A stretch of 38,828 nucleotides of DNA, taken from IMG/VR virus record IMGVR_UViG_3300006054_000001, positions 2,381-41,208 of that record. The stretch is one strand, 5' to 3'. The DNA is from a virus. This document shows positions 753 through 35,644 of the stretch, piece by piece (positions within the stretch are counted from its first letter, which is position 1; every line of letters begins with the position of its first letter). The notes beneath the pieces were generated by a model, which searched no databases, had not been told where the DNA came from, and was given only the letters and a program-made list of their open reading frames with translations. The position numbers were made by a program, and so were the translations under genes.

Positions 753-753
753 T
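726..753 (+). promoter_or_regulatory. Sigma70-type promoter for the tail spike, probably leaderless
   Basis: TTGCAA (726-731), a 16-base spacer, then a perfect TATAAT (748-753). Only 7 bases separate the -10 box from the ATG at 761, so the expected transcription start falls at or within a base or two of the ATG. No convincing Shine-Dalgarno lies in that gap. The -10 box overlaps the stop codon of the previous gene. Confidence 0.6.
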
Positions 754-760
754 ATAACTC

Positions 761-2723: not shown

Positions 2724-2724
2724 C

Positions 2725-7639: not shown

Positions 7640-7642
7640 GTC

Positions 7643-9198: not shown

Positions 9199-9844
9199 AG
9201 TAAAGACTACTCGTCTGTTAAACTATGAAGTAGAGCAAAATAGCTGGAAGAATATCTTTCCAAATCAAGTTTGGCAAGATTACTATAAGTGGCTTAGGTA
9301 TGGCTTTGTAGATGTTGCTTACGAGTATGTGTTTAAAGGTTTTGATGAAACTACGGTAGAGTTTCCTTTTGTAGTTAAAACTAAAGCACCTGTTAAAGAA
9401 GTGTGGAAATTTGATTTGAAACTGCCTGTCAAAAAGATTAATTATGGAACAAAATTTACAATACCAGCGGGAGCTACGACTTTTTACTTTGCGGACAATT
9501 TTAAGCTACCTGCTAACGCTTTGAGAAGAGCGGTTTATGAGTTTCTTAGGCTTTTTAGCGAAATAGTCATAGCTTCTGATTTAGCCGAATTGAAGTTTCA
9601 GTTCGGTGTTTTAGGTGAAATACCGATAACGGTAAGACCTACAGAGTTTCGGTTTGAGGTTTATGATGTAAATGGATACTTACTTGCTACAGCTAAAACA
9701 AACGAGCTTCAGCTTTACTTGGTTTTAAACAGGGAAGTCGTTGCTTCTGCTAATGCATATGAAATTTATAATACCTACTGCTCTTTAACTTCTTGGACAA
9801 GATTTGAAGATGGAAAATGGCAATCATGCGATACTTGGACTTAA
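9191..9844 (+). CDS. Probable virion protein, beta-rich
   Basis: 217 residues, rich in aromatic residues and Val/Thr (VEFPFVVKTKAPVKEVWKFD, FTIPAGATTFYFADNFKLPA). The 'IPAGATTFYF' type segment recurs in the 123-residue protein at 11110 (FIIPAGAFEIKV), hinting that both are related neck or tail beta-sandwich proteins. No signal peptide, enzyme motif or membrane span. Position between an ATP-grasp gene and a propeller-like tail protein supports a structural role. Confidence 0.55.
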   Translation: MSEVKTTRLLNYEVEQNSWKNIFPNQVWQDYYKWLRYGFVDVAYEYVFKGFDETTVEFPFVVKTKAPVKEVWKFDLKLPVKKINYGTKFTIPAGATTFYFADNFKLPANALRRAVYEFLRLFSEIVIASDLAELKFQFGVLGEIPITVRPTEFRFEVYDVNGYLLATAKTNELQLYLVLNREVVASANAYEIYNTYCSLTSWTRFEDGKWQSCDTWT

Positions 9845-10956
9845 TGAGCTTAAATCCTGTCTATTTGAAAGGCGACTTTGTGTATAAGACAAACAATGTG
9901 ATAGTCTTTCCGCAAATAACAAACGAACGTAGCATGGATATTAACATCATCACAAACCAGTTCTTAAACGGCACGGTAATTAACAACAAACTTATAGCTT
10001 TAGTGGAAACATCACCTTTTTACAAACTTTTTTACGAAAACGCAGAATACATACTTTATGAAGCTAAAGGTCTGATGGTTTTTGGCGATGTGGTTTTCTG
10101 TTTTTACAGGGATAAGTGCTTGGTAATAAACACGGCAACAGATGAAACAAAAACAATAACAATTACAGCTCCGACAAACATCGTTTATGCTTATCAAATA
10201 AACTCTTTCTTATTCGCTCTAATTACTTCGCAACCGACAACTGTCTATATTTATTCTTTGAATGACGCAGGAGATATAGCTAACACAACTGACGGCGGAA
10301 GCATAGATTTACCAAGTTATTCGTATGCGGTATTTTCTCATCCAAAGCAGAATGTAAGACTTGTTTCGTGGGATGATAGACTGTTCCTTTTTGGTAAAGA
10401 TGCAACGGTAGAATTAGCTCTTGATGTAAGAGACCTTGTATATCTTAGAACCATTCAAACATATCACCACCCTGTTAGTCCTTTTGAAGAGGTAGAACAG
10501 CTCGGCTTTGAGTTTTTCACGGAAACGCTGAACTTTTATGTATTTAGAAACACGATAAACAACAGTATGATGTGGATAAGCAAGGGCGATGAAAAAGTTT
10601 TCTTCTCAACAAATACAATTTACTTGACTAACACGCACGCTTTTCTCCACTCAAAGCTTTATACTATGAACCACGTATTTGACCCACTTCTTACAGACTT
10701 GCCAATAAATCGCTATTTTTCAGCAAAGTTCAAGCAAAATGGACTTAACGGTGTTTATGTTAATATGCTTGAGACGTCGGCTGGTAGAGAAGTTATCATG
10801 AGCGTGTTAGCAAGATACCATGAAGCAGAAAAGCTTTTTACCTATACTGTGTATCCAGACAGGCACACTTACAGACTTGGATTGAAAGGCGAGGAGTTTC
10901 TACTTGAGATAACATCTGACCAAGCTTTGAGACTTGCGGAGTTAAAGGTATGGTGA
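9817..10956 (+). CDS. Possible tail-hub/DNA-stabilisation protein (beta-propeller-like)
   Basis: 379 residues if started at 9817. An in-frame ATG at 9844 directly overlaps the previous stop (TAATG) and may be the true start; neither has a strong ribosome site. The protein is a series of beta blades with motifs such as SWDDRLFLFGKDATVELALD, reminiscent of P22 gp10 and T7 gp12 type tail hubs that plug the portal. This is a pattern-based guess. Neighbouring genes are structural. Confidence 0.55.
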   Translation: MAIMRYLDLMSLNPVYLKGDFVYKTNNVIVFPQITNERSMDINIITNQFLNGTVINNKLIALVETSPFYKLFYENAEYILYEAKGLMVFGDVVFCFYRDKCLVINTATDETKTITITAPTNIVYAYQINSFLFALITSQPTTVYIYSLNDAGDIANTTDGGSIDLPSYSYAVFSHPKQNVRLVSWDDRLFLFGKDATVELALDVRDLVYLRTIQTYHHPVSPFEEVEQLGFEFFTETLNFYVFRNTINNSMMWISKGDEKVFFSTNTIYLTNTHAFLHSKLYTMNHVFDPLLTDLPINRYFSAKFKQNGLNGVYVNMLETSAGREVIMSVLARYHEAEKLFTYTVYPDRHTYRLGLKGEEFLLEITSDQALRLAELKVW

Positions 10957-11141
10957 GAATTTTAAAAGATAGACAAGTCAGAGTGCATAAAGGCGTGGTG
11001 CTTTATGTAAATACTGACGGAACCGTGCGAGCAGAATTGGTTTTAAGCCCGACGATTATAGATGCAAGTAGTTATGTTTGCGTTATATTATTAACAGAGG
11101 AGGAAGAGAATGGCGACAAGAACGGAAGCAGGATTGGTTAA
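10950..11141 (+). CDS. Small unknown late protein
   Basis: 63 residues starting at the ATG at 10950, preceded by GGAG; overlaps the previous gene by 7 bases and the next by 32. Beta-type composition (VRVHKGVVLYVNTDGTVRAE), ending in an acidic tail whose DNA also serves as the Shine-Dalgarno (aggagg) of the next gene. Function unknown; may be a small virion decoration or neck protein. Confidence 0.5.
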   Translation: MVRILKDRQVRVHKGVVLYVNTDGTVRAELVLSPTIIDASSYVCVILLTEEEENGDKNGSRIG

Positions 11142-11481
11142 TCTTTTGAGAAATAATATTCAGAATTCTTACGTTGCTTTGATTAGAGAGGACAATACAG
11201 AAGCTCCAGTAGGCAGAGTGGCTTTTGGAACAGTAAATCAGACTTCCGATGCGAATTTCTGGTATTTTCGTAATGCTTCGGATATTGTATTTGAAAGAGC
11301 AACTACAGATGTGGCACCTTATACCAATCGCATCAAAGAGATTACGCTCTTTAATGCTTCTACAGGTGGAAATAAGCTGATAACCATTATTCTTGATGCT
11401 CCAAGAGTGTATTTAACTGGCGACAGATTTATCATACCTGCTGGAGCTTTTGAGATAAAAGTGCCTAAACTTGTTCCATAA
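11110..11481 (+). CDS. Probable small structural protein
   Basis: 123 residues. AGAGGAGGAAGAG just before the ATG at 11110. Beta-rich, with VAFGTVNQTSDANFWYFRNA and an IPAGAFEIKV end similar to a segment of the protein at 9191. The stop overlaps the terminase ATG by one base. Probably a neck, tail or capsid-associated protein; no family recognised. Confidence 0.55.
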   Translation: MATRTEAGLVNLLRNNIQNSYVALIREDNTEAPVGRVAFGTVNQTSDANFWYFRNASDIVFERATTDVAPYTNRIKEITLFNASTGGNKLITIILDAPRVYLTGDRFIIPAGAFEIKVPKLVP

Positions 11482-12941
11482 TGCAATTTGATACAGTTCT
11501 AACAGAAAAACAGCAAGAGACTTTAAACGCATTTTTCAATGGCGACAAGCCTTGGATATTATGTGTAGGTGGTAAAGGCTCGGCAAAAACCACTGCACTT
11601 GTTTATATTCTCATTATTTTGATGACTGACGAAAAATATAAAGAAAGCAAGATACTTGTGGCTCGTGAAAGTCTTAGAGATTTGAAAAACACTCTGATTG
11701 AAGAGTTTTTCAGAGTAAGCAATAAGCTTGGTTTAAAGCTTGGACTTGCTTACGATGAAAACAAACAACTCCAAAGAATTTACTCTTATGTGAATGGTTC
11801 TGAAATCTTTTACTTGTCTTTGTCTAACAAAAACGAGCAATACAAAACAGTCAGGTCTTACGAGTTCAACGTAGTTATGATTGATGAGCTTGATAGGATA
11901 AGCAAAGAAGCTTTTGTAGAAGCCTCGGAAAGGCTTAGGTATAGACATAAACTTGTGCGTGGGATTGTATCTCTCAACCCTGTTCCTGAAACTCATTGGA
12001 TTTATCAAATGTTTGTGCAAGGCGAAATGAAAGACTTAACGTATATCATCAAGTCAAGTCTTTACGACAACTTTATTTATGTAAAGCTACCGAAAGATGT
12101 GTTGAAAGATGCAGAGCATTACCTTTTTGAAGGCAAGAGTTATTACGTAATAAATAACACACGCTACGAAATTGTAAGTGAAAATGGCGACTTTTACATA
12201 ACTAAACGTTTTAACACTCCGCATAGCTACATAGTGCAAATGGAACATAAGCCACTGGTTTATCGTAGAGTAATGGTAGATGGAGAGTGGGGGAACGCTT
12301 ATCTTGAAGGTGATGGTATCTATTCGCACTACTTTACTGACGAACACATAGCAACAGATGTAAATCTTGATATACCAGATTTGATTTTCTTTTACAACTT
12401 TTACGCAGGTCTTGACTTTGGCGTGAGGCGTCCTGCTTATTGCTTGATTGCTGAAGATAGGTATGGCAGGTTGATTGTAGTGGATGAGCTTATAGGTGAA
12501 AACGAACCAATGATTGTGTTTATGGATAATGTCATCACACGCTTGAAAACTAAATTCAACTTAACACCAAGAGATGTAGAGTTTTGGGGGGATATAGCTG
12601 GAACTCAAAGAGAACAATATGATGGCAAAAGCATCGTCAGAAAGATTGAAGACACTTTCAAGATAAGAATTTACACGCAGAAAACACCGCAATTCCACAG
12701 CGTAGAAGCGATTAAAGAGCTTTTAGAGACCAAGATAAAAGATGTGCCTGTTCTCAGAGTTCATCAATCTTGCCATTTGACTTTACAAGGTTTTATGAGC
12801 GAGTTTAAGTATGACGATAATGGTAAATTGCTTAAAGATGGATATTACGAGCATCTTCACGACGCATTACGCTATGTGCTTTTTGCGTGGTATAAACAGA
12901 ACAAAGTAAAGAATTTCAGAGTAAGAACACCAAGCTATTGA
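11481..12941 (+). CDS. terL: Terminase large subunit
   Basis: 486 residues; ATPase-nuclease motor that packages DNA through the portal. Walker A is GGKGSAKT (residues 30-37); Walker B is VVMIDELDR (Asp135-Glu136). The C-terminal RNase-H-like nuclease shows Asp312 in GLDFG, Asp371 in WGDIAG and Asp461 in HDALRY, the expected metal-binding triad. Length is normal for the family. Start chosen at the ATG overlapping the previous stop (TAATG). No small subunit is recognisable next to it. Confidence 0.93.
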   Translation: MQFDTVLTEKQQETLNAFFNGDKPWILCVGGKGSAKTTALVYILIILMTDEKYKESKILVARESLRDLKNTLIEEFFRVSNKLGLKLGLAYDENKQLQRIYSYVNGSEIFYLSLSNKNEQYKTVRSYEFNVVMIDELDRISKEAFVEASERLRYRHKLVRGIVSLNPVPETHWIYQMFVQGEMKDLTYIIKSSLYDNFIYVKLPKDVLKDAEHYLFEGKSYYVINNTRYEIVSENGDFYITKRFNTPHSYIVQMEHKPLVYRRVMVDGEWGNAYLEGDGIYSHYFTDEHIATDVNLDIPDLIFFYNFYAGLDFGVRRPAYCLIAEDRYGRLIVVDELIGENEPMIVFMDNVITRLKTKFNLTPRDVEFWGDIAGTQREQYDGKSIVRKIEDTFKIRIYTQKTPQFHSVEAIKELLETKIKDVPVLRVHQSCHLTLQGFMSEFKYDDNGKLLKDGYYEHLHDALRYVLFAWYKQNKVKNFRVRTPSY

Positions 12942-19094: not shown

Positions 19095-22000
19095 TTGCAA
19101 GAAGCACGAAAGCTTGTTAATCACATAAATAATGCTGTATCTTTGCTTAACTTGACCGCACTTGCAGGTGGTATAGCAGGCTTCGGAGTTAGAACCTTGC
19201 TTATTCCACGATTGAGGAGCTATATAGCTAAGACTTTCCTTGCATCAGGAACTCACGCATTTACAGGACTTGCTTTAGCTGGCTCTGTCTTAGGTGAATT
19301 AAAGAAGGCTGAAGGTGAAGGTAGGAACCCGCTTACCGCTTTGTTTGACCCTTTCACTTTAGCTTTGGCTTATGATACGATTTATCACGGAGGCAAAGCT
19401 TTAAAGTCAATTCACAAAAGCACAGTTATTGAAGATGCTTTAGCAGGACACGTGGAAGCCAAGCTGATGACTTTCTTTAATCACACTCTTGAAAACAAAG
19501 AACGCTTAGCACGATACAGAAAAGAAGTCAAACAGCTCGCAACTCTTATTGAGAAAGTAAATCCAAGCTTATCAGACAATTTACTCAAGCAGATAAACAC
19601 TAATCAAGCTGTGGCTTTGAATAACCTTATATCGCTAAGAAGTCTTGAAGCACAGCTAAGCAACGAGCTACGTATCTTTACTGAAGCTGTTTATAATCTT
19701 GACGAGGTAAAAAACGCCTTCAAACCTTTCTTTACTCCTGACGGTAAGTTAGTAATAGATGCAAATCAAGTAGAGCATATCCTTTGGATGCTTAGTAAAA
19801 CTAACCCCGTTGTAAGAAAATATGTGGAAACGCAAAGAAAGGCATCGCTACTTTATGCTCTGTCTAAAGCGTATGAAGATAATACGCCAACTGTCCATAT
19901 GCGTATAGAAACAGATACAGGTTTTATTCGTCAAACTTTCAGTCTCAACAAAGCTGAAGATACTTTTAAAGCAATTTTTGATGAGATTAACAAGTATTTG
20001 GACCAAAACTTTAACGTGGTTCTTGAATGGAAAAGACCTATCTTAGACACGCCAAGGTCTGTTGTGATAAAGCCTGTCTATCATCCAAGCGTTGATGACT
20101 TTTACACATTAATAGGTGTGTTCTTTATTAAAGGCAAAAAACTTGAAGGTGGCATGCTAAAAGACGAATTTATTGAATATCTAAAAGGTATTGGCTTTGA
20201 TGATGACACTATCGCCTATCTTAGAAAACAATTTCTTGACAGCTTAGCACCTGACGAGCGTATTATCCTTCGCAACGAGCCAATCATAATTCCTTACTCA
20301 ATGGCAGAGCTTGGTAAATCTGCTTTAGACTTGACTGTCAAAAAGCTTTACCTTGACGATACTGCCGAGATAGTTTATTCTGCATATAACGTAAATCTGT
20401 CGCCAGCGAGAATTTTCCCATCCAAACTAAGAGAATTGGCTAAAAAGTCAAAACAAATAGCAAACAAGCTTAGCAAAGAAGCTCTTGAATTGGAGACAGA
20501 AATTCTTAGCAAAACCGCACAAACTTTGCGTAAAGCGGGAGTAATTCAAAACGAAGAAGATTTGATAAGACTAATCAAAGAAGTAGAACCAAGCGAGGCA
20601 AAGCGAATTTTGAAAGAGCTGATTGTTTCCGCTGAAAAGACTGGCAAAATTAAACCACAAGAGCTTCAAGAACTTGACAAACTTCTTAGAAGAAAGATTG
20701 ACCTAACTACAGCAAGAAAAGTCTTAGACGAAATGAAAGAGCAAGGCTTAATTTCCGAAATTCCTGATGAGCTTGATATTCAAACTGCTTTGTCTCTACT
20801 TAAACAAGGAAGAAAGGCTTTAGCTGAGCGGATAAAGACTACAGCCAAACAAGAACATGAAGAGTTTTTAAAAATCTTGCAAAATGATACAGAGCTGTTA
20901 AAAAGGCTTCCGATAAATCTTTTACCAAGCAGAAAGATAAAGCTTGAGCTGTCAAAGGTCAAAGATTTAATCAAAGCGTCTCTTAGTGCTGAAGAAAAAC
21001 TTAACAACATCGCATCAACATTAACGCAGCTTATAGAAACGCCTAATTTTGAGCTAAGAAGAACTAAACAAGGTTTCGCAACTGTCTTTAACTCTTACGA
21101 TGATATGATTAAGTTCGTGGCTCCAAGAGTTTGGAGCAGACTACACAGTAGAATGGAAGCAGTTAGAGTGCTTAGCGAAGTAAGAGATTTCTTAGAACGG
21201 CTACCGCAAAGAAACGAAGGTCAGGAATTGCTTCTGAAGTTTATCAGAATGGTTGAAGGAACTACAGGAGATGAGTTCGCAGATAAGCTTACCACAATAA
21301 GCAAGTTTCTTGGTTCAGTTTATACTATGAACTCTTTACCTATTGCGTTAGGAAACTTAGGACAATACATCGCTACCGCATCAGTTTTATTCCCAAGCTT
21401 AAGATTTGCTAACCCGCTTCATTTGGTTAAACACTCTGATGAAATTCTTGAAGCATTTAGAGAAGTCGCAACAGCAAGACACGGTGTTTATAGCTTCCAT
21501 AGACTAAATCCGTTTATCCCGCTTATCCAAGCAACGCTAAGAGCAAGCATTAAAGCAAGCATCCAAGATGAAGATGATATGATGAGAGTGCTAAGAGATT
21601 ACGCAAGGCTCATAGCTAAGCCCGAAGAAATTGATGATGTTGCTAAAGAACTGTTTGAATTCTACAAGTCAAATAAAGAACTGCTTGTAGATGACTTAGA
21701 AAGAATAATTTCGTCCGTAGATGTAAGAGCTATGGGAACGAGATTTCTCAAATACGCTCAGATAGGTGAAATTGTCTTGCCTTGGTATCGCTTTATCTTT
21801 ACTCCTGTAAGTTTTAGCTTAAACGCTCTTAAACAATTACCTGTAAGACTTGCCGAAAAAGATTTGAAAGCTGTAGCAAAAGGTATCGGCATATCTACAC
21901 TTCTTGCAACTGCTATAACTTCTGAGACAGTTCCTTATCTTGCTCCAGCTGAAATTGGTCTTGGTATTGCTAAAGACTTGGCTAATTTGCTTCAGCTGTT

Positions 22001-23060
22001 GTTTGATATAGATACTCCAGACGTGCTTCAACACAAAGATGTAAAAAACGCAATTTTAAGCATAATCGGTGATATAACAGGCATAAGAGAGCTACATCCT
22101 GCGGACAAGAATTACATCTTTGAAAATATCGGAAGAATGGTATCAAACGCAATTCTTGGAGCAGAAGCAAGAGGAAATTCAAAGCTTGGAGATATTCTTG
22201 AAACAGGACTAAGAGTGTTTGACTTGATATTTAACTTACCAAGAGCTGGAATAATCAGTGCAGGAGCAATGAGCTTCGGCTTTGGTGGAATATCAGAATT
22301 ACCATCTCCCGTGCTTCAAACTGCTAAAGCAATCTTCAGAGAGCTTTTTACTTACGAAAAGAAAGAGCCAGCAGAAGCTATGACAAGCCTAATTTCTACG
22401 TTATTTACTCAATTGGTTCCGCTCGGACGAAGCATAGTCATTGCTGTTGAAGGACGCCCACTTGCGAAAGGATTACCAGCAGAAGTTAGAGATTACTACG
22501 GTATCGGTGAAAAGTTGTCTGAAATACCAACTGAAGAGCTATACAAAATAATCGGTGCAAGCTGGTTAGTAGGCTTCATGGCTCAGTATTGGGATGGTGT
22601 CTTTACGAAATACGTAGGAACAGCTTTAGCTGAGTGGTTCTCGGGAGAAGGTGAAATAACGCAAAGCTTTAAGATGCCAACAGAAGCAGATTACTACAAA
22701 GTGATAAACCTAAGAGATAGCACAATTCTAAGAAACGATGAGAACATCAATTACATAACCGCAATTATCAAGAAAGCAAAGCCTGAACATAAAGAGCTTA
22801 TTTTTAGAAGACTTCACAGATTAGCTGAAATTACAGTTTTCGGAAGAACGAAAACGCCGAGCAAGTCTTTAGAAAATCTTGTGCTTAGTGAAGACTTTGA
22901 AAAACGCAAACGTGCTATTGAGAACTACATCAAGATTTATGAACGGACTAAAGACTACTTGACAGACGAAAGCAAGATTTTCGTAGAGCAGAGCATAAAA
23001 AACTGGCTTAACTTTTTAAAGTTGGCTGAGGAGGTAAGACGCAGACATGGACTTGATTAA
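19095..23060 (+). CDS. Giant internal virion/ejection protein (T7 gp16-like in size)
   Basis: 1321 residues counted from a TTG at 19095, which has no ribosome site; the frame is open from 19023, so the true start is doubtful (see the previous gene). Mostly helical, with hydrophobic stretches (LTALAGGIAGFGVRTLLIP at the N-terminus; MNSLPIALGNLGQYIATASV; a glycine-rich ISAGAMSFGFGGIS). Length and position after capsid and smaller ejection proteins match T7 gp16-type proteins that are injected and span the periplasm. I see no lytic-transglycosylase motif, so the enzyme part of gp16 seems absent. Confidence 0.7.
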   Translation: MQEARKLVNHINNAVSLLNLTALAGGIAGFGVRTLLIPRLRSYIAKTFLASGTHAFTGLALAGSVLGELKKAEGEGRNPLTALFDPFTLALAYDTIYHGGKALKSIHKSTVIEDALAGHVEAKLMTFFNHTLENKERLARYRKEVKQLATLIEKVNPSLSDNLLKQINTNQAVALNNLISLRSLEAQLSNELRIFTEAVYNLDEVKNAFKPFFTPDGKLVIDANQVEHILWMLSKTNPVVRKYVETQRKASLLYALSKAYEDNTPTVHMRIETDTGFIRQTFSLNKAEDTFKAIFDEINKYLDQNFNVVLEWKRPILDTPRSVVIKPVYHPSVDDFYTLIGVFFIKGKKLEGGMLKDEFIEYLKGIGFDDDTIAYLRKQFLDSLAPDERIILRNEPIIIPYSMAELGKSALDLTVKKLYLDDTAEIVYSAYNVNLSPARIFPSKLRELAKKSKQIANKLSKEALELETEILSKTAQTLRKAGVIQNEEDLIRLIKEVEPSEAKRILKELIVSAEKTGKIKPQELQELDKLLRRKIDLTTARKVLDEMKEQGLISEIPDELDIQTALSLLKQGRKALAERIKTTAKQEHEEFLKILQNDTELLKRLPINLLPSRKIKLELSKVKDLIKASLSAEEKLNNIASTLTQLIETPNFELRRTKQGFATVFNSYDDMIKFVAPRVWSRLHSRMEAVRVLSEVRDFLERLPQRNEGQELLLKFIRMVEGTTGDEFADKLTTISKFLGSVYTMNSLPIALGNLGQYIATASVLFPSLRFANPLHLVKHSDEILEAFREVATARHGVYSFHRLNPFIPLIQATLRASIKASIQDEDDMMRVLRDYARLIAKPEEIDDVAKELFEFYKSNKELLVDDLERIISSVDVRAMGTRFLKYAQIGEIVLPWYRFIFTPVSFSLNALKQLPVRLAEKDLKAVAKGIGISTLLATAITSETVPYLAPAEIGLGIAKDLANLLQLLFDIDTPDVLQHKDVKNAILSIIGDITGIRELHPADKNYIFENIGRMVSNAILGAEARGNSKLGDILETGLRVFDLIFNLPRAGIISAGAMSFGFGGISELPSPVLQTAKAIFRELFTYEKKEPAEAMTSLISTLFTQLVPLGRSIVIAVEGRPLAKGLPAEVRDYYGIGEKLSEIPTEELYKIIGASWLVGFMAQYWDGVFTKYVGTALAEWFSGEGEITQSFKMPTEADYYKVINLRDSTILRNDENINYITAIIKKAKPEHKELIFRRLHRLAEITVFGRTKTPSKSLENLVLSEDFEKRKRAIENYIKIYERTKDYLTDESKIFVEQSIKNWLNFLKLAEEVRRRHGLD

Positions 23061-24095: not shown

Positions 24096-27000
24096 TTATG
24101 ATTTTTCCCATTTTTTGCTAATGTTAGGCATTTCAACTTCAAGTTTAAATTCTTCAATCAACCTACCTTGCTGTTTAGCTTCTTCTAAACACCACTCCCA
24201 AGCTTGTTCCATCTCCGCTTTTACAATTAAAGCTATATCCTCTGCTGTTTGTCTGTCTGCTTCAATCACTATCTCGTCATGCACCAAATTAACAATAGCA
24301 AGGCTTGGATACTTCTTCTTAAGCTCTACTATCGTCTTCTTAAACAACTCTGCACCTGAACCTTGTATTTGATAGTTAAGCATTTGCTGTGGAGATTTAG
24401 CTACGTATTTTCTACCAAGCCAAGTTTCACCTTCAGCTTCTGTGTTGTATCTAAAGTAATCTTTGACAAGCTCGTGTTCTTTAGCTATCTTTGTATAAGT
24501 CTCAAAGAATTTCGTGTGAATTAGTTGTGCCGTCTCTAAATCCATCGGAATTCCATTGCTTATGCAATATCTTTGGAAACCTTGTGGAGAAGCTCCGTAA
24601 ATTAGTCCAAAATTGGCAGACTTTGCCACCTGCCTTTGCTCCTTAGATACTTCATCTACAGGCACGCCATAGATAATTGAAGCCGTTATTTTATGAAGGT
24701 CTTCACCTTTTCTAAACGCTTCTACAAATTTCGGCTCACGCCATAAAGCACCTCCCAGTCTCAATTCTATCTGCGGAAAGTCAGCTGTTATAAGGACTTT
24801 ATCGTTATCTTCAGTAAAGCCAAACAAGTCTCTCAAACTTCTTGGAACCTGCTGAAGATTTTCATCATTGCAACTCATACGTCCGCTTGGAGCCTGTGTT
24901 GTCCAAAAGATGCCTTTCACTCTAACTCCGTGCTGTATATACGTCTCAAGCATAGAAATTTCTTTAGCTATCTTTCTTGCAAGTAAAACCTTCTCCGCTA
25001 TTTCCTTTCTTACTCCATTGTTGATTATTAGGTCTTGAAGCGTCTCTTCCCTCGTATCTTGAACCGATAAAGCGTTTTTAGTTTGTTGCGGGGAGCGTGG
25101 ATTAAAGCCAAGCTCTTTGGTTATAACATCAAGTTCTTGTCGTAGAACAATTAGCTTTGCTCTCGCTTCTTCAACCAAGAACGGCATTCCTCTTTGGCTT
25201 GTATCCACACAAACCTTTAAAGCTTCTTGGTCTAACTGTTGAACTATGCTTAAACTGTCATCAGAAATGGCATCAAACAGTTTAGGCAAATAATAAACAT
25301 CAAGACCAACATATTGTAGCTGTTCTTGTGTAAAGTAAAGTGTGTTTTTGAATGTTTTTCTGATTTTCGTTTTGTCAAATGGATACTCCACTCCAAGCAC
25401 ATCTTTTAACACATCATCTAACTTAAAGCTGTCTCTTTTGTAAAGCTTTTCCCGTGCAAGTAAAAGCAAGTCTAACACGACATGGTCTTTTAACTCTTCA
25501 TAAGAGAAACCAAGCCTGACAAGGTCATAGTTAAGCCCCCAGCCACTTATTACGTTAAATCTGAGAAGCCATTCTTTGACTTGCTCCAGCTTGACTTTAC
25601 GTAAATCTACCGCATAAACCTTTTTCCAGTGTTTTTGATAGAGAGCGAGCAAAATAGGTTGTTGCGTTTCAACATCTGCTTCTACGTCTATGTATATAGT
25701 TCCATCGTATTGTATGTGGTCTTTAATTTGCTTAAAGTCTGTTATAAGCTCTACATCAGGTAGAGGTGCGGTTAGTTGTTTGACTTCTTTAATTTCAGCA
25801 AAACGATTATCTTCTTGCGGTTCGTTATCAGCACCACCATTGTTATTCGGTGGTATTGGTGGCGGTTCTGCGTCATCGTCATCATCTGCAAAGCTCATAT
25901 TCAAATACTTTTCTACATCTACACCTTTGCCTTTTAATACGGTATAAACAGAGTTAAACACTTTCTCACTCAAAACACGTTTTGCGGTATTGATATAAGC
26001 ATAGAGACAAAGGTCTCTATCTTTGTCAGGCATGTTATTTACATTTTCTAACAATCTCTCCACGTCGTTGTTTATCAATTCTGCATCATCAATTCTGCTA
26101 ACAAGCACAGAGTTTGCGAATAAATAAGCTCTTGTTGTTTTGTATTTCTTGAGAAGAACATCTTTAGAATACTTCAAGACTTGCGAGCTTGGTATTTGCA
26201 CCTTTGCTATTTTGATAAGCTTATCCAAAGAAGCTCCTCCCAAAGTCCGAGGCAAGTCTGGTCTGTTTCTATCGTTGATAGTCTTGTAAAGAATATCAGT
26301 CAATTGTGTCAGAAAATCTACAAGCTCTTCTTCAAGCCTTTTCTCACGTGGCAGGAATAGTTTATAGAATGTTGATAAGCTTGTATCCACGTATAAAGCT
26401 ATTTGTGTCAAAAGCTCTTCCCACTCTTCTTGCGGAATTTGAAGAACATCAGTGAAAATTCTAAGAGCGAAAAGTATTCTTGAAAGTAAGTTGTCAATAG
26501 CAGAAAGAAGCTTTACCTTTTGGTCTTTATAACCTTCTCTTATCAGTGTGTCTTGAAGCAACTTAATACTTGCGAACTTACGTGCTTGCTCCTCAATAAT
26601 GCGTTTGTCTATCCTTTCTAAGTCTTCAATTATCTTATAAGCGAAACCATGATGGTTGTAAAATTGTTCTATCAGCTCGTTGTAAAAGCTCATTAGCTTT
26701 TCATACTTTTTCAAGTTCCTGTCGTCAAGAGATATAACTAAAGACCTTCTGAAGAGACCTTCGTTTTCCTGAAGCATTGCCTCAACAGGTAAGTTCTGAG
26801 GCTCTCCAGCGATAACGACAGGCACATCTATTGGTTCAAACACACCATAAGAATGAGCTTTTACGCCTTGATTTGCTATCAGATAGATGAGATTTTCAAC
26901 TTGCTTTCTTTTCTCTTCTGTGTTTGCCCTTACCTCATCAAGCGGAAGTGGAACTTTGTAGTTTCCGTATTCACGTTCTATTCTTACCACCGACGTTTCC

Positions 27001-28790
27001 GAGATATCTATAGTAAGCGGTAAGCCATACAAAGCCGAAGCTACCTTTAGTCTTGTAGTCTTACCTGTTCCTGACGAACCCCTCAAAAACACGAGAGTGT
27101 TAAGCTCTTCACGAAGAGCTGTATTTTCAATATAAGGAGAAATGATATGCGTGAGGAAATAGCCTAACAATATAAGCATCACTGGGTCTTTCAGTTTTAC
27201 GATTTCTCTATAGTAGTTTTTCCAAGTGTTGAAATCGCCTTTTACGCTCGGAATAAACTGCTTAACGCTTTGAGACATAAAACCGTGCATGAAAAAGTTG
27301 ATATCTTCAACACGATATCTGTTCTTGTTTGCTACAACTATCTTCCAGTTGCCTTTTTCTTTGTCGTAATAGTATCCTACTTTTGCTATGGTTCTTCTGC
27401 CATGCTTCATAACAAAATCTTGTATATAACGCTCTACCAAAAGCTTGAACTCTTTCTTTTGCGTTGGAACTATTGTAATAGCGTGAAAGTTTGAATAGTC
27501 AATATTACCGCCAGACGTTAGACCGACTTTTATATAGAAAGTCCCGTCTTTCGTATTGACTTTTAAGAAATTAAAGTCATCTTTTTTGTCTGGTTTTGGA
27601 AAGTAAAGATAATCTTCAATTGTAAAAAGCTCGCAAACAGGCTTACGCTCATCTTCTGCGATGTAATACCAAAAACCTTTCTCTTCGTCAAGCTCAAAAC
27701 CTGCAATGTTTATGTATATGAGGTCTCTAAAAATATTGGAAGTAAGCTTGCCATCTTTCCATCTTGCGTGCGGACATTGATAACAAAAATCTTTAAATCT
27801 TACAGCTCTCAAGCTTATACTCTCACATCCCATTACTACATAACCATCTTCCCGCTTTACTTTCTCATACTCTTTTTCAAACTGATAGATTATTCTCTTT
27901 AATTCAGGAGTGCCTTTCTTCCATCTGAGGCTATTGTTTATCCACATGGTTTTGTAAGTCTCTTTATCTCCAGACACATGTGCAAAGAGCGTATATTTAT
28001 GTGCCATTAGGAACCATTCATCGTAGTTGTGATTTTCCCACTCTTGCTCCAATATCCGCAAGATAGGACACGCTTCATATACAGTTCTCAGATAGTTCAA
28101 ACTTAGCTTAGAAGCTGGAATAATCGGTAATTTCTCTCCGTCTATTAAAACTCGGCTACCTTCCAGCAAGTCAAGAATAAACGTATCTTTTTGGTTAGGT
28201 TCTGAATAAAGATATATCTCATCGCTATACCGTGTATGAACGTTCCACAAGATATCAACTCTATCCACAAAATGGTAAGTCCTTCTCAAGCTTTCAAGTG
28301 CATTTTTAAAATCACGCAAAGCTGATATAAACTCTTCATCATCTTTGCTTATACGCTCTACTGTAAAGTAAAGAAGATGCCAGCCTTTCACTGTTCTTAA
28401 AATAACAGTCGGCTTTATAGGTAATACATTTGCAAACTCAAGAACTTTTTCAAGCGATAGTGGTGTCTTATCTTTGTTCTCTATGTCAATACGAATAGGA
28501 CACTTAGTCCATTCAAAATAATCTTTACCATAACGCTCTTTAAAGCTTGCTAAGTTAAACCTTACTTCAGACCTTCTGGATGTTGCTTTATTCTTAAACT
28601 CTTCTAACGCTGATTTTAAATCGGTTCCGACAAGTTCAGGAAATACTTCCAGAAGTGGTTTTATGGTTTGGCTTTTGTTTATCTTGTCTTCTATCATCAC
28701 ATAAACAAAGCCGCTAAACTCTATGCCTTCTTCTGTGAAGCTAATAAGACCTGCAAGCTCCAAAAGATTGAAAAAGTCTATTTTTTGCAT
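24096..28790 (-). CDS. Primase-helicase-exonuclease-DNA polymerase A fusion
   Basis: 1564 residues, a replisome in one chain. Residues ~60-300: primase-like domain of the archaeo-eukaryotic type, with RIDIE (Asp102, Glu104), KGWH (His138) and DRVDI (Asp179). Cys322, Cys336 and Cys339 suggest a metal site. Residues ~540-760: P-loop helicase of the DUF927/SF3-like kind, Walker A GSSGTGKTT (571-579), LPLDE near 618. Residues ~967-997: acidic/Pro/Asn linker. Residues ~1020-1210: DEDDy 3'-5' exonuclease (Asp1035, Glu1037; late YVGLD). C-terminus: family-A polymerase, motif A Asp1337, motif B Arg1386, Lys1390, Phe1394, Tyr1398, motif C His1504-Asp1505. The polymerase strongly resembles PyroPhage 3173 Pol; the layout parallels apicoplast Prex. 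Domain borders are approximate. Confidence 0.92.
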   Translation of the reverse strand: MQKIDFFNLLELAGLISFTEEGIEFSGFVYVMIEDKINKSQTIKPLLEVFPELVGTDLKSALEEFKNKATSRRSEVRFNLASFKERYGKDYFEWTKCPIRIDIENKDKTPLSLEKVLEFANVLPIKPTVILRTVKGWHLLYFTVERISKDDEEFISALRDFKNALESLRRTYHFVDRVDILWNVHTRYSDEIYLYSEPNQKDTFILDLLEGSRVLIDGEKLPIIPASKLSLNYLRTVYEACPILRILEQEWENHNYDEWFLMAHKYTLFAHVSGDKETYKTMWINNSLRWKKGTPELKRIIYQFEKEYEKVKREDGYVVMGCESISLRAVRFKDFCYQCPHARWKDGKLTSNIFRDLIYINIAGFELDEEKGFWYYIAEDERKPVCELFTIEDYLYFPKPDKKDDFNFLKVNTKDGTFYIKVGLTSGGNIDYSNFHAITIVPTQKKEFKLLVERYIQDFVMKHGRRTIAKVGYYYDKEKGNWKIVVANKNRYRVEDINFFMHGFMSQSVKQFIPSVKGDFNTWKNYYREIVKLKDPVMLILLGYFLTHIISPYIENTALREELNTLVFLRGSSGTGKTTRLKVASALYGLPLTIDISETSVVRIEREYGNYKVPLPLDEVRANTEEKRKQVENLIYLIANQGVKAHSYGVFEPIDVPVVIAGEPQNLPVEAMLQENEGLFRRSLVISLDDRNLKKYEKLMSFYNELIEQFYNHHGFAYKIIEDLERIDKRIIEEQARKFASIKLLQDTLIREGYKDQKVKLLSAIDNLLSRILFALRIFTDVLQIPQEEWEELLTQIALYVDTSLSTFYKLFLPREKRLEEELVDFLTQLTDILYKTINDRNRPDLPRTLGGASLDKLIKIAKVQIPSSQVLKYSKDVLLKKYKTTRAYLFANSVLVSRIDDAELINNDVERLLENVNNMPDKDRDLCLYAYINTAKRVLSEKVFNSVYTVLKGKGVDVEKYLNMSFADDDDDAEPPPIPPNNNGGADNEPQEDNRFAEIKEVKQLTAPLPDVELITDFKQIKDHIQYDGTIYIDVEADVETQQPILLALYQKHWKKVYAVDLRKVKLEQVKEWLLRFNVISGWGLNYDLVRLGFSYEELKDHVVLDLLLLAREKLYKRDSFKLDDVLKDVLGVEYPFDKTKIRKTFKNTLYFTQEQLQYVGLDVYYLPKLFDAISDDSLSIVQQLDQEALKVCVDTSQRGMPFLVEEARAKLIVLRQELDVITKELGFNPRSPQQTKNALSVQDTREETLQDLIINNGVRKEIAEKVLLARKIAKEISMLETYIQHGVRVKGIFWTTQAPSGRMSCNDENLQQVPRSLRDLFGFTEDNDKVLITADFPQIELRLGGALWREPKFVEAFRKGEDLHKITASIIYGVPVDEVSKEQRQVAKSANFGLIYGASPQGFQRYCISNGIPMDLETAQLIHTKFFETYTKIAKEHELVKDYFRYNTEAEGETWLGRKYVAKSPQQMLNYQIQGSGAELFKKTIVELKKKYPSLAIVNLVHDEIVIEADRQTAEDIALIVKAEMEQAWEWCLEEAKQQGRLIEEFKLEVEMPNISKKWEKS

Positions 28791-28793
28791 GGC

Positions 28794-29471
28794 TTATCCT
28801 CCTGATTTATTTAACCTCTTGTAGAAACCGCATAGGTCTTTAAATAAACAAAACTGACAATAACCATTAATTATTCCAAGCGGTGGATATTCTTCTGTAT
28901 TAACGAGTTTCTTAACTTGCTTTATTACGGTCAAAACAAAATCAGTCGGATATGGTTTTACAGGTATTTTTACGAAATCGTTCGGCATTATGTAATGTAG
29001 CTCGTAATAATCCGCATCATCAGTAAGTCTGTATAGAGAAAGCTGAAATAAATGAGATGGTTTAGGATGTAAAACATGCTGTCTTGTAGTCTTCATTTCA
29101 ATCATTCTCCTTTCGTTCGTTATAATATCAATATACCCAGTTATTATAACATCATCTATCTCAAGCTCAAAAGGTTTTTCAACAGCTAAAACGCCTTCAT
29201 TTTTTATCTTCTCTATTTCACGTTCGTATGCGGTATAAAACAATTTCAACTCATTGAAATCAACTAAAACTCCATCAGACGCTACTATCTCACCAAGAGC
29301 CTCTTTGAAATTCGCTCCATTGAGGATTAACTCTACAACTTTATGAAAAGCTTTGCCTGTTGCTGTTGCCTTGCTTAACGGTCTTTCTTCTTTGCCATAG
29401 GTTTTGTAGAGATAAAAAGAATAAGGGCATTTAGCGTAATTTAAAACGCTACTTGCCGATAGGCTCCACAT
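28794..29471 (-). CDS. Cas4/RecB-like Fe-S nuclease
   Basis: 225 residues. PD-(D/E)XK nuclease with iron-sulfur cysteines: Cys15 (KCPYSF) plus Cys205, Cys208 and Cys214 (YCQFCLFKDLC) for a 4Fe-4S cluster; nuclease residues His43, Asp115 (YIDII), Glu125-x-Lys127 (IEMKTT) and Gln143...Tyr147. This is the full Cas4/AddB-type signature. Role: 5'-3' resection or end processing in replication/recombination; viral Cas4 homologues have also been proposed to interfere with CRISPR adaptation. No cas1/cas2 nearby. Start overlaps the helicase gene's end by 23 bases and uses the AGCC-ATG early leader. Confidence 0.85.
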   Translation of the reverse strand: MWSLSASSVLNYAKCPYSFYLYKTYGKEERPLSKATATGKAFHKVVELILNGANFKEALGEIVASDGVLVDFNELKLFYTAYEREIEKIKNEGVLAVEKPFELEIDDVIITGYIDIITNERRMIEMKTTRQHVLHPKPSHLFQLSLYRLTDDADYYELHYIMPNDFVKIPVKPYPTDFVLTVIKQVKKLVNTEEYPPLGIINGYCQFCLFKDLCGFYKRLNKSGG

Positions 29472-30612
29472 GGCTAAGCTCCTTTAAATACTCCGCTACA
29501 TCTTTTTTCTGCTCTATGACACTCTTAACGATGTAATCAATTTCATTTTGCAGAAGACGATAAACAGCCACCTTATTCCCTTGTCCCGCCCGATATATTC
29601 TACCTATCGCTTGTTCATAGTCTATATACTTTAACGGCATTGAAGCAAAAACGATATTTCTATACGCTCTCTGGAGATTAGCTCCTTCGCTTAAAATATA
29701 AGTAGTTATGATAGGCTTGTCTTGTAGGTGTATAGCTCGCTCTACCATATGCTTTGGAGTTTCTGATGTAAAGGCATAAACCTTGTTTCCGAGCTTCTTT
29801 TCAACCTCTCTCACAAAGTCTCTGAATAAACTAAACACCACGGTCGCTTTATCCTCTTCTATAAAATCTAAGACAAATTCAAGCTTCTGTGGAGTTAAAC
29901 TTGAAGCTTTGTATTCTTTGATGAAATTTGCTAAGTCATAGTTTGATAGCTCATACTCAAGTTTGGCTTGTGGAAGCTTTATATCGTAAAAGCTAAGCTC
30001 AGGCAATTCAACCACGTCGTTTCTTTTAACTACGTCTGCGTATTTGTGGAACCACGCCTGAAGAATAACGGCGTATTGTTCGTCTTTAAGTCTTTTTGGC
30101 TTTAAGTATTCGTCAAGTTCAAAAAAGAAATTCACGAACTTTGTATAACTTGGGAACTTTTTAAAGAACTCATCTTCGCCGTTGGTTAAAATCCTCAACT
30201 GAGCATATAGCTTGTGGTATTTGTCGGCTGGTGTTCCGCTTAACATAAGAATGTTTTTCATGTAAGGTCTGAGCTTGATTGCCTTCTTAGTCCATTGCGT
30301 TTTTGTGTAGCTTAGTCTATGTGCTTCGTCAAATATTACCAAGTCGTATTTTGATACATCGCTGATTTTGTCTCTAAAGTGCTCATAAGTTATAACATCA
30401 AGCTTTAATCCGAAATGCCTATTGTCATTATACCAACTCAAATGTGCCGAACGGGGAGCTACTACCAAAATCTTTTCATAACCATGATACTCCGCCGTAG
30501 CTAATGCCCCAATAGTTTTCCCAGTCCCTACTTCCCACGCCATGTATGTTTTGTTTGGATAGGTCTTGACAAATCTCTCTTGGTGATTATATAATTTAAT
30601 ATCCCCTCTCAT
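29449..30612 (-). CDS. SNF2-type superfamily-2 helicase/translocase
   Basis: 387 residues. Motif I EVGTGKT (Lys32), motif II DEAH (95-98), motif III SGTPA (~125-129), and a C-terminal RecA-like domain ending in motif VI QAIGRIYRAGQ (~residue 337-347). Compact compared with cellular SNF2 proteins, as usual for phage versions. Likely dsDNA translocation or fork/branch remodelling during replication or recombination. Preceded by a shared early leader (GAAGGAGGTGAGCC-ATG); an overlapping mini-ORF of 10 codons begins just before the Shine-Dalgarno. Confidence 0.85.
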   Translation of the reverse strand: MRGDIKLYNHQERFVKTYPNKTYMAWEVGTGKTIGALATAEYHGYEKILVVAPRSAHLSWYNDNRHFGLKLDVITYEHFRDKISDVSKYDLVIFDEAHRLSYTKTQWTKKAIKLRPYMKNILMLSGTPADKYHKLYAQLRILTNGEDEFFKKFPSYTKFVNFFFELDEYLKPKRLKDEQYAVILQAWFHKYADVVKRNDVVELPELSFYDIKLPQAKLEYELSNYDLANFIKEYKASSLTPQKLEFVLDFIEEDKATVVFSLFRDFVREVEKKLGNKVYAFTSETPKHMVERAIHLQDKPIITTYILSEGANLQRAYRNIVFASMPLKYIDYEQAIGRIYRAGQGNKVAVYRLLQNEIDYIVKSVIEQKKDVAEYLKELSHVEPIGK

Positions 30613-32476: not shown

Positions 32477-33514
32477 TTAATTGATTTTTCTCGGCATCAC
32501 ATAATAAGTGAAGTCCATATCTCCTTTCAATTGAACGATACTATTTGCATCAATTATATCCATTATTATTATGTTGCTATTAAACTTTTCTACGCCTTGA
32601 AGTAAGAACTTGGGATTAAAACCTATTACTATCTTCTCTGATAATGTCATATTAACTACCTCTACTTGCTTTCTAACCTCTACACCTTCTCGGTCTATAA
32701 AAGTAAGCTTTGCTTCATTTCCAGATACTTCTAAAACTACTATGTCTATGTTTTTGACCTTTTTAAGAGCATCCACCAATTCCTTTTTGTTAAAGCTGAA
32801 CACATGTTTAAATTCAAGTCCTTCTATAACGACTCTGTAGTTTGGATACGAGCTTGGATTAGAGTTATATACTTCCCATTTTATTACGCCGTTTTTATAT
32901 CCAGCTATCTTTGAATATTCTTCATCTGAGCCAAGCTCTACCTCATCCACCATTGGTAGTAAGTGTTTTAGTATTTTAAATACATATCTCATAACATACG
33001 CATCAGACTTTATTTCAAAGTCTGGCTTATAAACACCAAGTCTATATCCATCTGATGAGACTATCTCTCTATTCTCAGAAGAAAAATAAACGCATTGTAG
33101 AAAAGAGTAAGCATCTTTTGAAACAAAATCTTCCAGCTTTTTAAGTATTTTGGAAAAAGTGTCAGCAGATATTTTTGTTGTTTCTGCTGTTTTAACCTCT
33201 TTCCAATAAAGACTATCATTGTTGCCATAAACCTTTATGGTTGCTTCTTTATTCTGGAATATTAATTGGGAGTTTGTCTCATCAAAAACAATTTCCACTT
33301 GCCCCAAGCTGTTTTCTATCTTTCTAAAATCTGTTATAGAACACACAGCATGACCTTTGGAATATATCTCTCCATCAAGATAGACCCTAAGCCCCATCTC
33401 TAAAATCGGAACTGTAAGCGTAATATTGTCCTTTGCTTCAATGCATACTTGAGAGGCATTACAAAGAGCAACGGCTTTAACAATGTTTTCTGAAACATAA
33501 GCTTTTACATGCAT
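32477..33514 (-). CDS. dnaN: Beta sliding clamp
   Basis: 345 residues, close to the ~365 of bacterial DnaN. The family pattern is visible: the middle-domain motif FLQCVYFSSENREIVSSDGYRLGVYK (about residues 138-163; compare the 'TDghRLa' motif), FNPKFLLQGVEKF near residue 300, and a C-terminal YYVMPRKIN corresponding to the 'MPirl' end. It would encircle DNA and tether the viral polymerase. First gene of the replication operon, with its own promoter (33546-33573) and the AAAGGAGGTGTGAGCC-ATG leader. Confidence 0.82.
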   Translation of the reverse strand: MHVKAYVSENIVKAVALCNASQVCIEAKDNITLTVPILEMGLRVYLDGEIYSKGHAVCSITDFRKIENSLGQVEIVFDETNSQLIFQNKEATIKVYGNNDSLYWKEVKTAETTKISADTFSKILKKLEDFVSKDAYSFLQCVYFSSENREIVSSDGYRLGVYKPDFEIKSDAYVMRYVFKILKHLLPMVDEVELGSDEEYSKIAGYKNGVIKWEVYNSNPSSYPNYRVVIEGLEFKHVFSFNKKELVDALKKVKNIDIVVLEVSGNEAKLTFIDREGVEVRKQVEVVNMTLSEKIVIGFNPKFLLQGVEKFNSNIIIMDIIDANSIVQLKGDMDFTYYVMPRKIN

Positions 33515-33698: not shown

Positions 33699-34472
33699 CT
33701 ATTTTTGAAAGAGTTTCTTTTTTAAATCTGAAAATCGTATTATGCTGAATGATAAATATATCTGTTGAAAGGCTCCAGCTTTCATCCAGCCCGTGCTATC
33801 AAAACTTGTTGGAATAATGCCTTCCTCCACCAAAACTTTCAAATAGCTTGGAGCACCTATACCAAATATATGAAACTTCAAATTATGCTCTTTTGCTAAC
33901 GAATAAGCATACTTTAACAACTCCAAGCTTTGTTGAGATATAAAATTTACTTCCCCTTTTCTTCCTGAAGTGCTGAAGCTTCCAAAACCGACATACTGTA
34001 TCCCAAGCTCCACATAAGTTTTTACGCAACGAGCTATTTGTTCTTCTGTTCGTCCATGTATAACCGCTATCGCTTTTTCCACAGGCACAACATACATAAA
34101 ACCTTTAACCGCTTCTATTGTCTTTTGCACCTTAAACTCTACATCACTGTCTCCTAAACTTGGTGGATAATCAGGCAAAACATACCAATCAGCCCACTTA
34201 TGCTTACGATAAAAATCATGTAAATTCCGAAGTAAGTCTTCAAATCGCATTTTACCTGTTTGCACTTGGTATCCACCACTGTCAAACATTAAGTTCTTTA
34301 TCTCTCCTGCATCTCTAAGCTGTCTTATGTATTCTAATGTAGCTCGTGGAGCAGAAAGAGGAGAAACAATTACATTGGCAAATGCGTTGCGTGGGTCTTT
34401 ACTCTTTTTCCAAAGTTTATAAATTCTCCTAAGCTCTTTAAAAGAGATTGTAAGCGGTAGGTAAAAATTCAT
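33699..34472 (-). CDS. TGT-like transglycosylase, DpdA-type candidate
   Basis: 257 residues. TIM-barrel tRNA/DNA-guanine transglycosylase pattern: FDSGGYQV (Asp64), LPDYPPS (Asp101), AVIHGRT, VGFGSF (~161-166), FGIGAPS, and SFDSTGW with Asp225 as the probable nucleophile. The zinc-binding cysteine cluster of tRNA enzymes is missing. Short TGT paralogues in phages belong to the DpdA group, which exchange guanine in DNA for 7-deazaguanine derivatives to resist restriction. No queuosine-pathway genes are in the window, so the base would come from the host. Start overlaps the GNAT gene by 4 bases (ATGA). A tRNA-acting enzyme cannot be excluded. Confidence 0.75.
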   Translation of the reverse strand: MNFYLPLTISFKELRRIYKLWKKSKDPRNAFANVIVSPLSAPRATLEYIRQLRDAGEIKNLMFDSGGYQVQTGKMRFEDLLRNLHDFYRKHKWADWYVLPDYPPSLGDSDVEFKVQKTIEAVKGFMYVVPVEKAIAVIHGRTEEQIARCVKTYVELGIQYVGFGSFSTSGRKGEVNFISQQSLELLKYAYSLAKEHNLKFHIFGIGAPSYLKVLVEEGIIPTSFDSTGWMKAGAFQQIYLSFSIIRFSDLKKKLFQK

Positions 34473-34876
34473 TTAATTACTTTCTTCCAAATCGCTATAT
34501 GGCGTTTCTTTCCCTTCTCTACACCAGTGCAAATATAACCTTGCGTAGCATAGAAGTTGTTAGCTTCTATTTCCGCAGGACATTTAAGGCGTATCTTTTG
34601 CGCTTCGTTTTCTACAGCTTTAAGTAAAGCTTTACCAAATCCTTTACGGCGATACTCTTTATCTACGCAAATTTTGTATATCGTAGTCCAACCATCCCTG
34701 CAATGATGGAAACAAACAAAACCAACCACTTTCCCGCTATATTCTGCAACATACACTTCATTACGCTTTATATGCTCAACAAACATTCCACGTGGTGAAA
34801 ATCCAAGCTCATTTCTATTCTTGTCCGCTATAGCTTTTATTTCTTCTAAATCTTCAAGTTTTGCCTTTCTTATCAT
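34469..34876 (-). CDS. GNAT-family N-acetyltransferase
   Basis: 135 residues. Core GNAT pattern: KVVGFVCFHHC, then the acetyl-CoA motif A YKICVDKEYRRKGFGKALLK (pyrophosphate loop RRKGFG, residues 76-81), and NNFYATQGY near 106-114. The substrate cannot be read from sequence; it may be a protein, a toxin, or the modified base made by the neighbouring transglycosylase. Overlaps both neighbours by 4 bases, so the three genes are clearly one operon. Confidence 0.85.
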   Translation of the reverse strand: MIRKAKLEDLEEIKAIADKNRNELGFSPRGMFVEHIKRNEVYVAEYSGKVVGFVCFHHCRDGWTTIYKICVDKEYRRKGFGKALLKAVENEAQKIRLKCPAEIEANNFYATQGYICTGVEKGKKRHIAIWKKVIK

Positions 34877-35583
34877 AGCTTTACCTCTTTCAAATCTTTA
34901 AAAGATAAAACAGGCTCATAAGTTCCACTGAAATTATAAACGACCAGTTCATCATATAGGCCAAACGCTACGCCGACCATAAAGGCTATAGGCACGGGAC
35001 AAGAGAAGAAGAAATGAAATCTGTCAAAGCTCTGATGTTTCTTTACATCTTGAAGTAAGCTTGAAGTTTCATTAGCTACGGTAGGCATAAGCTCTATAGG
35101 TATGTTGCCAGTAATGCCCTTTAAGCTAATTTCTAAATAAGACGGATTTTCAAGTCTGAGTTTATTCATCACATACTCTTTTACCGCTGTCTTTATTTCA
35201 TGATGTGAGTAGTTAAGCATAACAACCAAGTCTTTACCACCCGCTTCATAAAAAGGCTCAACGTAGTTGTATTGCTTCAGTCTCTGTTTTAAAGCTCGCA
35301 CGTTTGTAATAGGTATAGTATGATACGCTCCATTTTGATAGTGCCAAAATGAAAAAGTCTTCAAGCTTCCAAAAATTACCCCACACCCAAAAGCTAAAGA
35401 AGAGGGGCCATTCAAAGCTAAGTGGATATGCCCATCTATTTCTTTAACAGTGCTATAGAATTGTCTTACGGCTTCTATCCAGTCTCCTGTGAAAGCTATT
35501 GTCTTTACCTCTGTATTCTTCGGCAAGGCTTTTTTGAAAGTTTCAACTTCAAAACCCCACTTAGTGATATACACACCAATCAT
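34873..35583 (-). CDS. Stand-alone SAVED-domain protein
   Basis: 236 residues from the ATG at 35583, set by the AAAGGAGGTAGAGCC leader. Two similar blocks are visible: residues 53-91 (IHLALNGPSSLAFGCGVIFG then a YHTIPI end) and 189-226 (FHFFFSCPVPIAFMVGVAFG then a YEPVLS end). The 'h.f..P...Af..G..fg...v..y....Y..v' pattern repeated twice is that of SAVED, two fused CARF-like units that bind cyclic oligonucleotides in CBASS and type III CRISPR effectors. No protease, nuclease or membrane domain is attached. First gene of an operon with GNAT and DpdA-like genes. Binding-only function suggests a decoy or sponge. Confidence 0.7.
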   Translation of the reverse strand: MIGVYITKWGFEVETFKKALPKNTEVKTIAFTGDWIEAVRQFYSTVKEIDGHIHLALNGPSSLAFGCGVIFGSLKTFSFWHYQNGAYHTIPITNVRALKQRLKQYNYVEPFYEAGGKDLVVMLNYSHHEIKTAVKEYVMNKLRLENPSYLEISLKGITGNIPIELMPTVANETSSLLQDVKKHQSFDRFHFFFSCPVPIAFMVGVAFGLYDELVVYNFSGTYEPVLSFKDLKEVKL

Positions 35584-35616
35584 GGCTCTACCTCCTTTCA
35601 AGGTTTTACAGTTTTT

Positions 35617-35644
35617 ATTATAGTCTTTTTGCAAAACTTGTCAA
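35617..35644 (-). promoter_or_regulatory. Promoter of the SAVED-GNAT-DpdA operon
   Basis: Minus strand: TTGACA (35644-35639), 16-base spacer, TATAAT (35622-35617), followed by a ~30-base leader (containing GTAAAACC, shared with other early promoters) and AAAGGAGGT. A 25-bp repeated element lies just upstream (35649-35712). Confidence 0.75.

Follow-up and report, generated by a model that had tools for sequence, protein, structure and literature searches.

How much of a replication machinery can be carried by one phage protein? This question is raised by an open reading frame (ORF) in IMG/VR virus record IMGVR_UViG_3300006054_000001 (41,208 bp, G+C 36.9%), of which we analyzed bases 2381-41208 (38,828 nucleotides; hereafter the window, to which all positions below refer). 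The ORF lies on the minus strand, from 28790 to 24096, and comprises 1564 codons with no interruption; the plus strand of the same segment contains many stops. The original prediction held that this frame encodes a whole replisome, with primase-like motifs, a P-loop helicase, a DEDDy exonuclease for proofreading, and a 3173-type family-A polymerase. The fusion was borne out by the open frame and by its Pfam and PHROG domains. The domain order is AEP-like primase, four-cysteine PriCT/PriL-like segment, DUF927 AAA+ domain, acidic linker, DEDDy exonuclease, and family-A polymerase. However, "whole replisome" was too strong, and the protein is better read as a replicase core: the beta clamp, an SF2 helicase, and a Cas4/RecB-like nuclease each have a gene of their own, and no clamp loader is known.

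The fusion itself was known before. In TOSV (1606 aa) and TGBSV, Palmer et al. (2020) described a PolA "polyprotein" to which a DUF927 helicase is fused; AJCSV and ACSV have separate ORFs instead (PMC7689252). The record of the window has the same length, the same G+C content, the same gene layout, and the same SAVED protein as TGBSV (PMC7689252; PMC12751052). Judged from this match in length, composition, and gene content, the genome is that of TGBSV, one of the viruses named in the 3173 "Pyrovirus" group. What we add is evidence for an AEP-type primase at the front end of the protein.

Evidence for an AEP-type primase

A search of 136 Aquificota genomes gave one homologue of the N-terminal part, a protein of 1126 aa encoded on a contig of 6.9 kb from a single bin (hereafter L172). 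It includes DUF927 and no exonuclease-polymerase in frame, and the bin's own PolA lies elsewhere. The two proteins are 28-30% identical (28% over residues 1-1000), and both keep RxDI[E/D], KGWHLxY, TR, the four cysteines, Walker A, and DE. Among 3161 background ORFs, a regular expression combining motif I and motif II matched these homologues only. The gene of L172 is located at 545-3925 on the minus strand of contig 63 of Aquificota bin G064. This contig has little else in common with the window and is probably another Aquificota mobile element.

The family profile for comparison included an AEP-DUF927 protein of known type (L197, 986 aa, with AEP, DUF927, and HTH_56), which had been found via DUF927, and AEP relatives from plasmids, phages, and viral contigs. 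This family was picked once, for its AEP-DUF927 type, and thus little multiple testing is involved. The N-termini of the window protein and L172 were aligned to the profile by hhalign over residues 84-342 with a score of 44.3 (probability 70%, P = 4e-5), and the alignment takes in motifs I and II, the YxEW segment, and the cysteines. With this first profile, the best of 200 column-shuffled controls scored 22.2, compared with 44.3 for the real alignment. When 300 random ORFs were used instead, the top three (350.7, 52.0, and 29.9) looked like AEPs themselves, and the best of the others scored 27.3. After the profile was enlarged by two of those AEPs, the score of the window protein and L172 was 54.3 (probability 90%, P = 1.4e-6), and L172 alone reached a probability of 95% (P = 5.6e-8).

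Several points weigh against an AEP at this place. First, the N-terminus of the window protein scored weakly against the AEP profiles when used alone (26.6-30.8; P = 2.6e-3 with the enlarged profile), so the case depends on the homologue L172. Second, the choice of the motif III Asp varied between aligners, and this third catalytic Asp is not firmly aligned. Third, searches of Pfam, PHROGs, and PDB sequences with residues 1-460 returned no primase family. Fourth, the AlphaFold models built from two-row alignments (pLDDT 38 for the primase part and 35 for the helicase part) were unusable for want of sequences; a Foldseek search with the former gave no match, which is meaningless for such a model. 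However, Pfam likewise misses the primase and the polymerase of GP55, the four-in-one replicase of lactococcal phage 1706. Thus, the silence of Pfam at residues 1-460 is no evidence against a primase.

On balance, we regard the N-terminus as a reasonably supported homologue of AEP-type primases, and primase activity would be predicted for it from its motifs. The primase-like front end of the original prediction is therefore supported by profile-profile comparison once the distant homologue is added, although the direct searches of Pfam, PHROGs, and PDB did not recover such a signal. Meanwhile, a TOPRIM primase was considered and rejected: no such match was found, and the N-terminus of the window protein fits the AEP type. 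In several control DUF927 proteins, by contrast, AEP motif II is missing and the appearance is TOPRIM-like.

Further relatives were sought elsewhere. Scans of IMG/VR with the full protein, the N-terminus, the exonuclease-polymerase part, and DUF927 gave no relative, with back-translated patterns that were strict. A search of Bacillota (399 genomes) and Chloroflexota (301 genomes) gave matches confined to DUF927.

The helicase, exonuclease, and polymerase domains

The P-loop helicase of the original prediction proved to be a DUF927 AAA+ domain with Walker A and Walker B-like motifs. DUF927 (PF06048) was matched with E = 5.7e-11 in the full protein and 1.5e-11 with the isolated segment, and PHROG 8841 (primase/helicase) matched the same region (E = 2e-7). 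The ATPase fold probably extends to about residue 770. Published fusions pair DUF927 motors with AEP primases (PMC5862659), and helicase activity is proven for a DUF927 protein from staphylococcal elements (PMC5862659; PMC7581432). The DUF927 part of the window protein would be expected to act as a helicase and may form hexamers.

At the C-terminus, Pfam DNA_pol_A covers residues 1222-1534 (E = 3e-52). DNA_pol_A_exo1 was found at residues 1110-1176 with E = 9.5e-4, which is weaker than the curated cut-off. The exonuclease residues are in place, namely D1035 and E1037 (IYIDVEA), D1089 (NYD), and Y1160 and D1164 (YVGLD); the numbering of Asp1035 and Glu1037 and the YxxxD given by the original prediction were right. 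The exonuclease and polymerase motifs are complete and align with those of Aquificota and phage PolAs. Motif residues are conserved among relatives in both halves, in L172 for AEP motifs I and II and the Walker motifs and in these PolAs for exonuclease and polymerase.

In an unrooted maximum likelihood tree of 46 rows, the fused polymerase paired with that of viral contig L004 (99/97) and then joined further phage polymerases (98/96). The phage polymerases and the Aquificota PolAs formed one set (100/97), from which Prex, the apicoplast protein of Plasmodium, and other bacteria split off. The phylogeny proposed for the polymerase was carried out with Aquificota PolA and Prex; 3173 Pol was not among the rows. 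Together with the place of the genome in the 3173 "Pyrovirus" group, the tree agrees with the polymerase type originally predicted: the fused polymerase probably belongs to the Aquificota/3173 group of family A. The L004 polymerase (44-46% identity), whose gene is incomplete at the contig start, was found with a polymerase alignment that included PDB relatives, and the gene order downstream of the polymerase is common to L004 and the window. Directly after polA, L004 encodes a PAPS-reductase/DndC-like protein (1352-2392, plus strand; SGGKDS, by eye), whereas the window has small ORFs there.

For the homologous 3173 exonuclease-polymerase fragment, polymerase, 3'-5' exonuclease, reverse transcriptase, and strand-displacement activities have been verified, and polymerase activity was confirmed for a longer variant including DUF927 (PMC10423840).

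Possible function of the fused protein

We consider it likely that the fused ORF encodes a replicase core for TGBSV, a hot-spring phage whose host is the heat-loving Thermocrinis, and that in this core an AEP primase, a DUF927 motor, and a proofreading family-A polymerase are tethered by a linker. The AEP-superfamily primase, with its PriCT/PriL-like cysteine domain, would lay primers on DNA unwound at the fork by the DUF927 AAA+ motor, probably as a ring. The family-A polymerase at the C-terminus would extend these primers under DEDDy proofreading. The acidic linker may tether the primase-helicase half to the exonuclease-polymerase half and hand over the primer end, and this tether would keep priming, unwinding, and synthesis coupled. 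The protein would function as one uncut chain. The same gene block encodes the beta clamp, the SF2 helicase, and the Cas4-like nuclease, which may act in trans; the clamp loader, which Palmer et al. did not find (PMC7689252), would presumably be supplied by the host. A stronger version is that the uncut chain of AEP, AAA+ helicase, and proofreading family-A polymerase is a self-priming hyperthermophilic replicase, copying a bare template at about 80 °C with no added primers. This version is tentative, and we lean slightly against it.

The main rival is that the chain is a true polyprotein, whose cleavage within the acidic linker would release a primase-helicase and a separate exonuclease-polymerase, as reported for Plasmodium Prex, with which Palmer et al. 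drew the analogy when they used the word "polyprotein." The low-complexity linker sits exactly between the two halves. In addition, each half can work on its own: AJCSV and ACSV encode the DUF927 part in its own ORF, L172 is without a polymerase, and the isolated 3173 exonuclease-polymerase fragment is active (PMC10423840). However, the window proteins that were searched include no recognisable protease, TOSV and TGBSV have both retained the fusion, and GP55 is an example of a fused replicase that works without being cleaved (PMC12205980). We thus regard cleavage as unlikely, though it deserves more weight than the other rivals.

It is less probable still that the N-terminus has kept an AEP fold but lost the ability to prime, or is a DNA-binding or initiator module only, so that the host primase is used and just the motor and the polymerase are active. 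Such a loss would suit a region that is very divergent, with an uncertain motif III and no standard-library match. Nevertheless, the acidic pair of motif I, the His of motif II, and the four cysteines persist in L172 at 28-30% identity, which suggests selection for catalysis.

Finally, a sequencing or assembly artefact joining neighbouring genes can be dismissed: the metagenome assembly was 454-based at about 15x and related genomes carry the parts as separate ORFs, but the frame is open throughout, the same fusion occurs independently in TOSV (1606 aa) and TGBSV (1564 aa), whose genomes come from separate springs, and a longer variant with an N-terminal DUF927 was amplified by polymerase chain reaction and was active (PMC7689252; PMC10423840).

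Comparison with known systems

The window protein shows the same fusion of DUF927, exonuclease, and polymerase as the published TGBSV/TOSV polyprotein (OS3173 ORF36; PMC7689252). For the longer TOSV homologue, Palmer et al. noted "primase and/or helicase" motifs (PMC7689252), and compared with that description, the assignment of an AEP and a cysteine domain here is more specific.

GP55 likewise includes an AEP primase, a helicase, a 3'-5' exonuclease, and a polymerase in one chain (PMC12205980). However, the domains of GP55 are arranged as helicase-AEP-alphaHD-PolB, its polymerase is of family B, and its motor is of the D5/DUF5906 type, whereas the order in the window protein is AEP-Cys domain-DUF927-exo-PolA. 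Because its C-terminus is family A and not family B, the window protein is, from its domain content, an analogue and not a member of the GP55 replicase family. By this analogy, it may follow the logic of GP55 via another polymerase family and another order.

The AEP-DUF927 fusions of the PrimPol-PV1 supergroup (PrimQH/All3500; PMC5862659), such as L197, have the same order of AEP, cysteine/PriCT-like segment, and DUF927. In contrast, they have no exonuclease-polymerase fused, and L197 ends in HTH_56.

In apicoplast Prex, a related family-A exonuclease-polymerase is likewise fused behind a primase-helicase, although it falls outside the clade of Aquificota and phages in our tree. The primase-helicase of Prex is TOPRIM/Twinkle-like, and the N-terminal halves of Prex and the window protein are probably unrelated. 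The parallel with Prex in the original prediction stands for the polymerase and probably does not extend to the N-terminal half.

The same modules occur unfused in phage contig L043 (6431-11874, plus strand), in which a family-A exonuclease-polymerase gene (polA, 6431-8353) and an AEP gene (8968-11874) are separate neighbours. The fusion is thus one of several arrangements.

The polymerase half belongs to the enzyme family sold as PyroPhage/RapidDxFire. Should the front half prove active as an AEP primase and a helicase, the natural full-length protein might serve in whole-genome amplification as a thermostable replicase that needs no primers. It would then also follow that phages built the package of primase, helicase, and proofreading polymerase more than once, with family A and with family B.

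Features of the fused ORF and neighbouring genes

The features are collected in table 1. The fused ORF begins 4 bases after the Cas4-like gene, within a minus-strand block of replication genes in the order clamp, SF2 helicase, Cas4/RecB-like nuclease, and fused replicase ORF.

Table 1. Predicted features of the fused ORF and the adjoining replication genes (window positions)
Feature	Position	Strand	Basis
Fused replicase ("PolA polyprotein" of TGBSV), 1564 aa	24096..28790	-	Single open frame; TGBSV/TOSV architecture published (PMC7689252)
AEP-like primase catalytic domain, residues about 84-230	28101..28541	-	hhalign against AEP family profile
AEP motif I, IRIDIE (D102, E104)	28479..28496	-	WRFDID in L172; aligned with VDID of L197 AEP
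AEP motif II, KGWHLLY (H138)	28368..28388	-	KGWHLxY invariant in L172; aligned with SGYGIHAYW of AEPs
Probable AEP motif III and downstream Arg, VDRVDILWNVHTR (D176 or D179; R187)	28230..28268	-	Aligned near IDPTADLARVLR; T186-R187 kept in L172
PriCT/PriL-like segment, C241, C322, C336, C339	27756..28085	-	All four kept in L172; C, YxEW, and later C aligned with AEP family
DUF927 AAA+ putative hexameric helicase, residues 449-644	26859..27446	-	PF06048; PHROG 8841
Walker A, GSSGTGKTT, 571-579	27054..27080	-	G571 and GTGK kept in L172
Walker B-like, PLPLDEV, 614-620	26931..26951	-	DE618-619 kept in L172
Acidic Pro/Asn/Gly-rich linker, residues 963-995, with FADDDDDAEPPPIPPNNNGG; tether or processing site	25806..25904	-	Sequence
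Putative 3'-5' proofreading exonuclease, DEDDy (D1035, E1037, D1089, Y1160, D1164)	25221..25733	-	PF01612, E = 9.5e-4; catalytic residues conserved
Family-A DNA polymerase; motif A D1337, B R1386/K1390/F1394/Y1398, C D1505/E1506	24189..25127	-	PF00476; motif alignment; tree
Cas4/RecB-like PD-(D/E)XK nuclease, own gene	28794..29471	-	PF12705, E = 5e-14; PF01930, E = 2e-7
SNF2/SF2 helicase, own gene	29449..30612	-	PF00176/PF00271; PHROG 62, E = 1e-51
DnaN-like sliding clamp, own gene	32477..33514	-	PF02768, E = 1.4e-9; PHROG 947, E = 2e-23

Several other genes of the window were noted. The SAVED-domain protein at 34873-35634 (minus strand; PF18145, E = 8e-15) matches the anti-CRISPR ring nuclease AcrIII-2 of TGBSV, which was characterised in 2025 (PMC12751052). 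Together with a GNAT acetyltransferase (34469-34876), it adjoins a 257-aa protein at 33699-34472 (minus strand) with no Pfam match and a match to PHROG 887 (queuine tRNA-ribosyltransferase, E = 4e-9). From this match, the 257-aa protein is possibly a TGT/DpdA-like DNA base-modification enzyme.

Meanwhile, a 396-aa protein with no Pfam match is encoded within the structural-gene block (7643-8833, plus strand); it is ATP-grasp-like by eye, which is odd for this position. A 1321-aa protein with a TTG start and no Pfam match is encoded at 19095-23060 (plus strand). Its counterpart in L004 has 1659 aa and the same convergent position. The 1321-aa product is probably a large protein of the virion or its interior.
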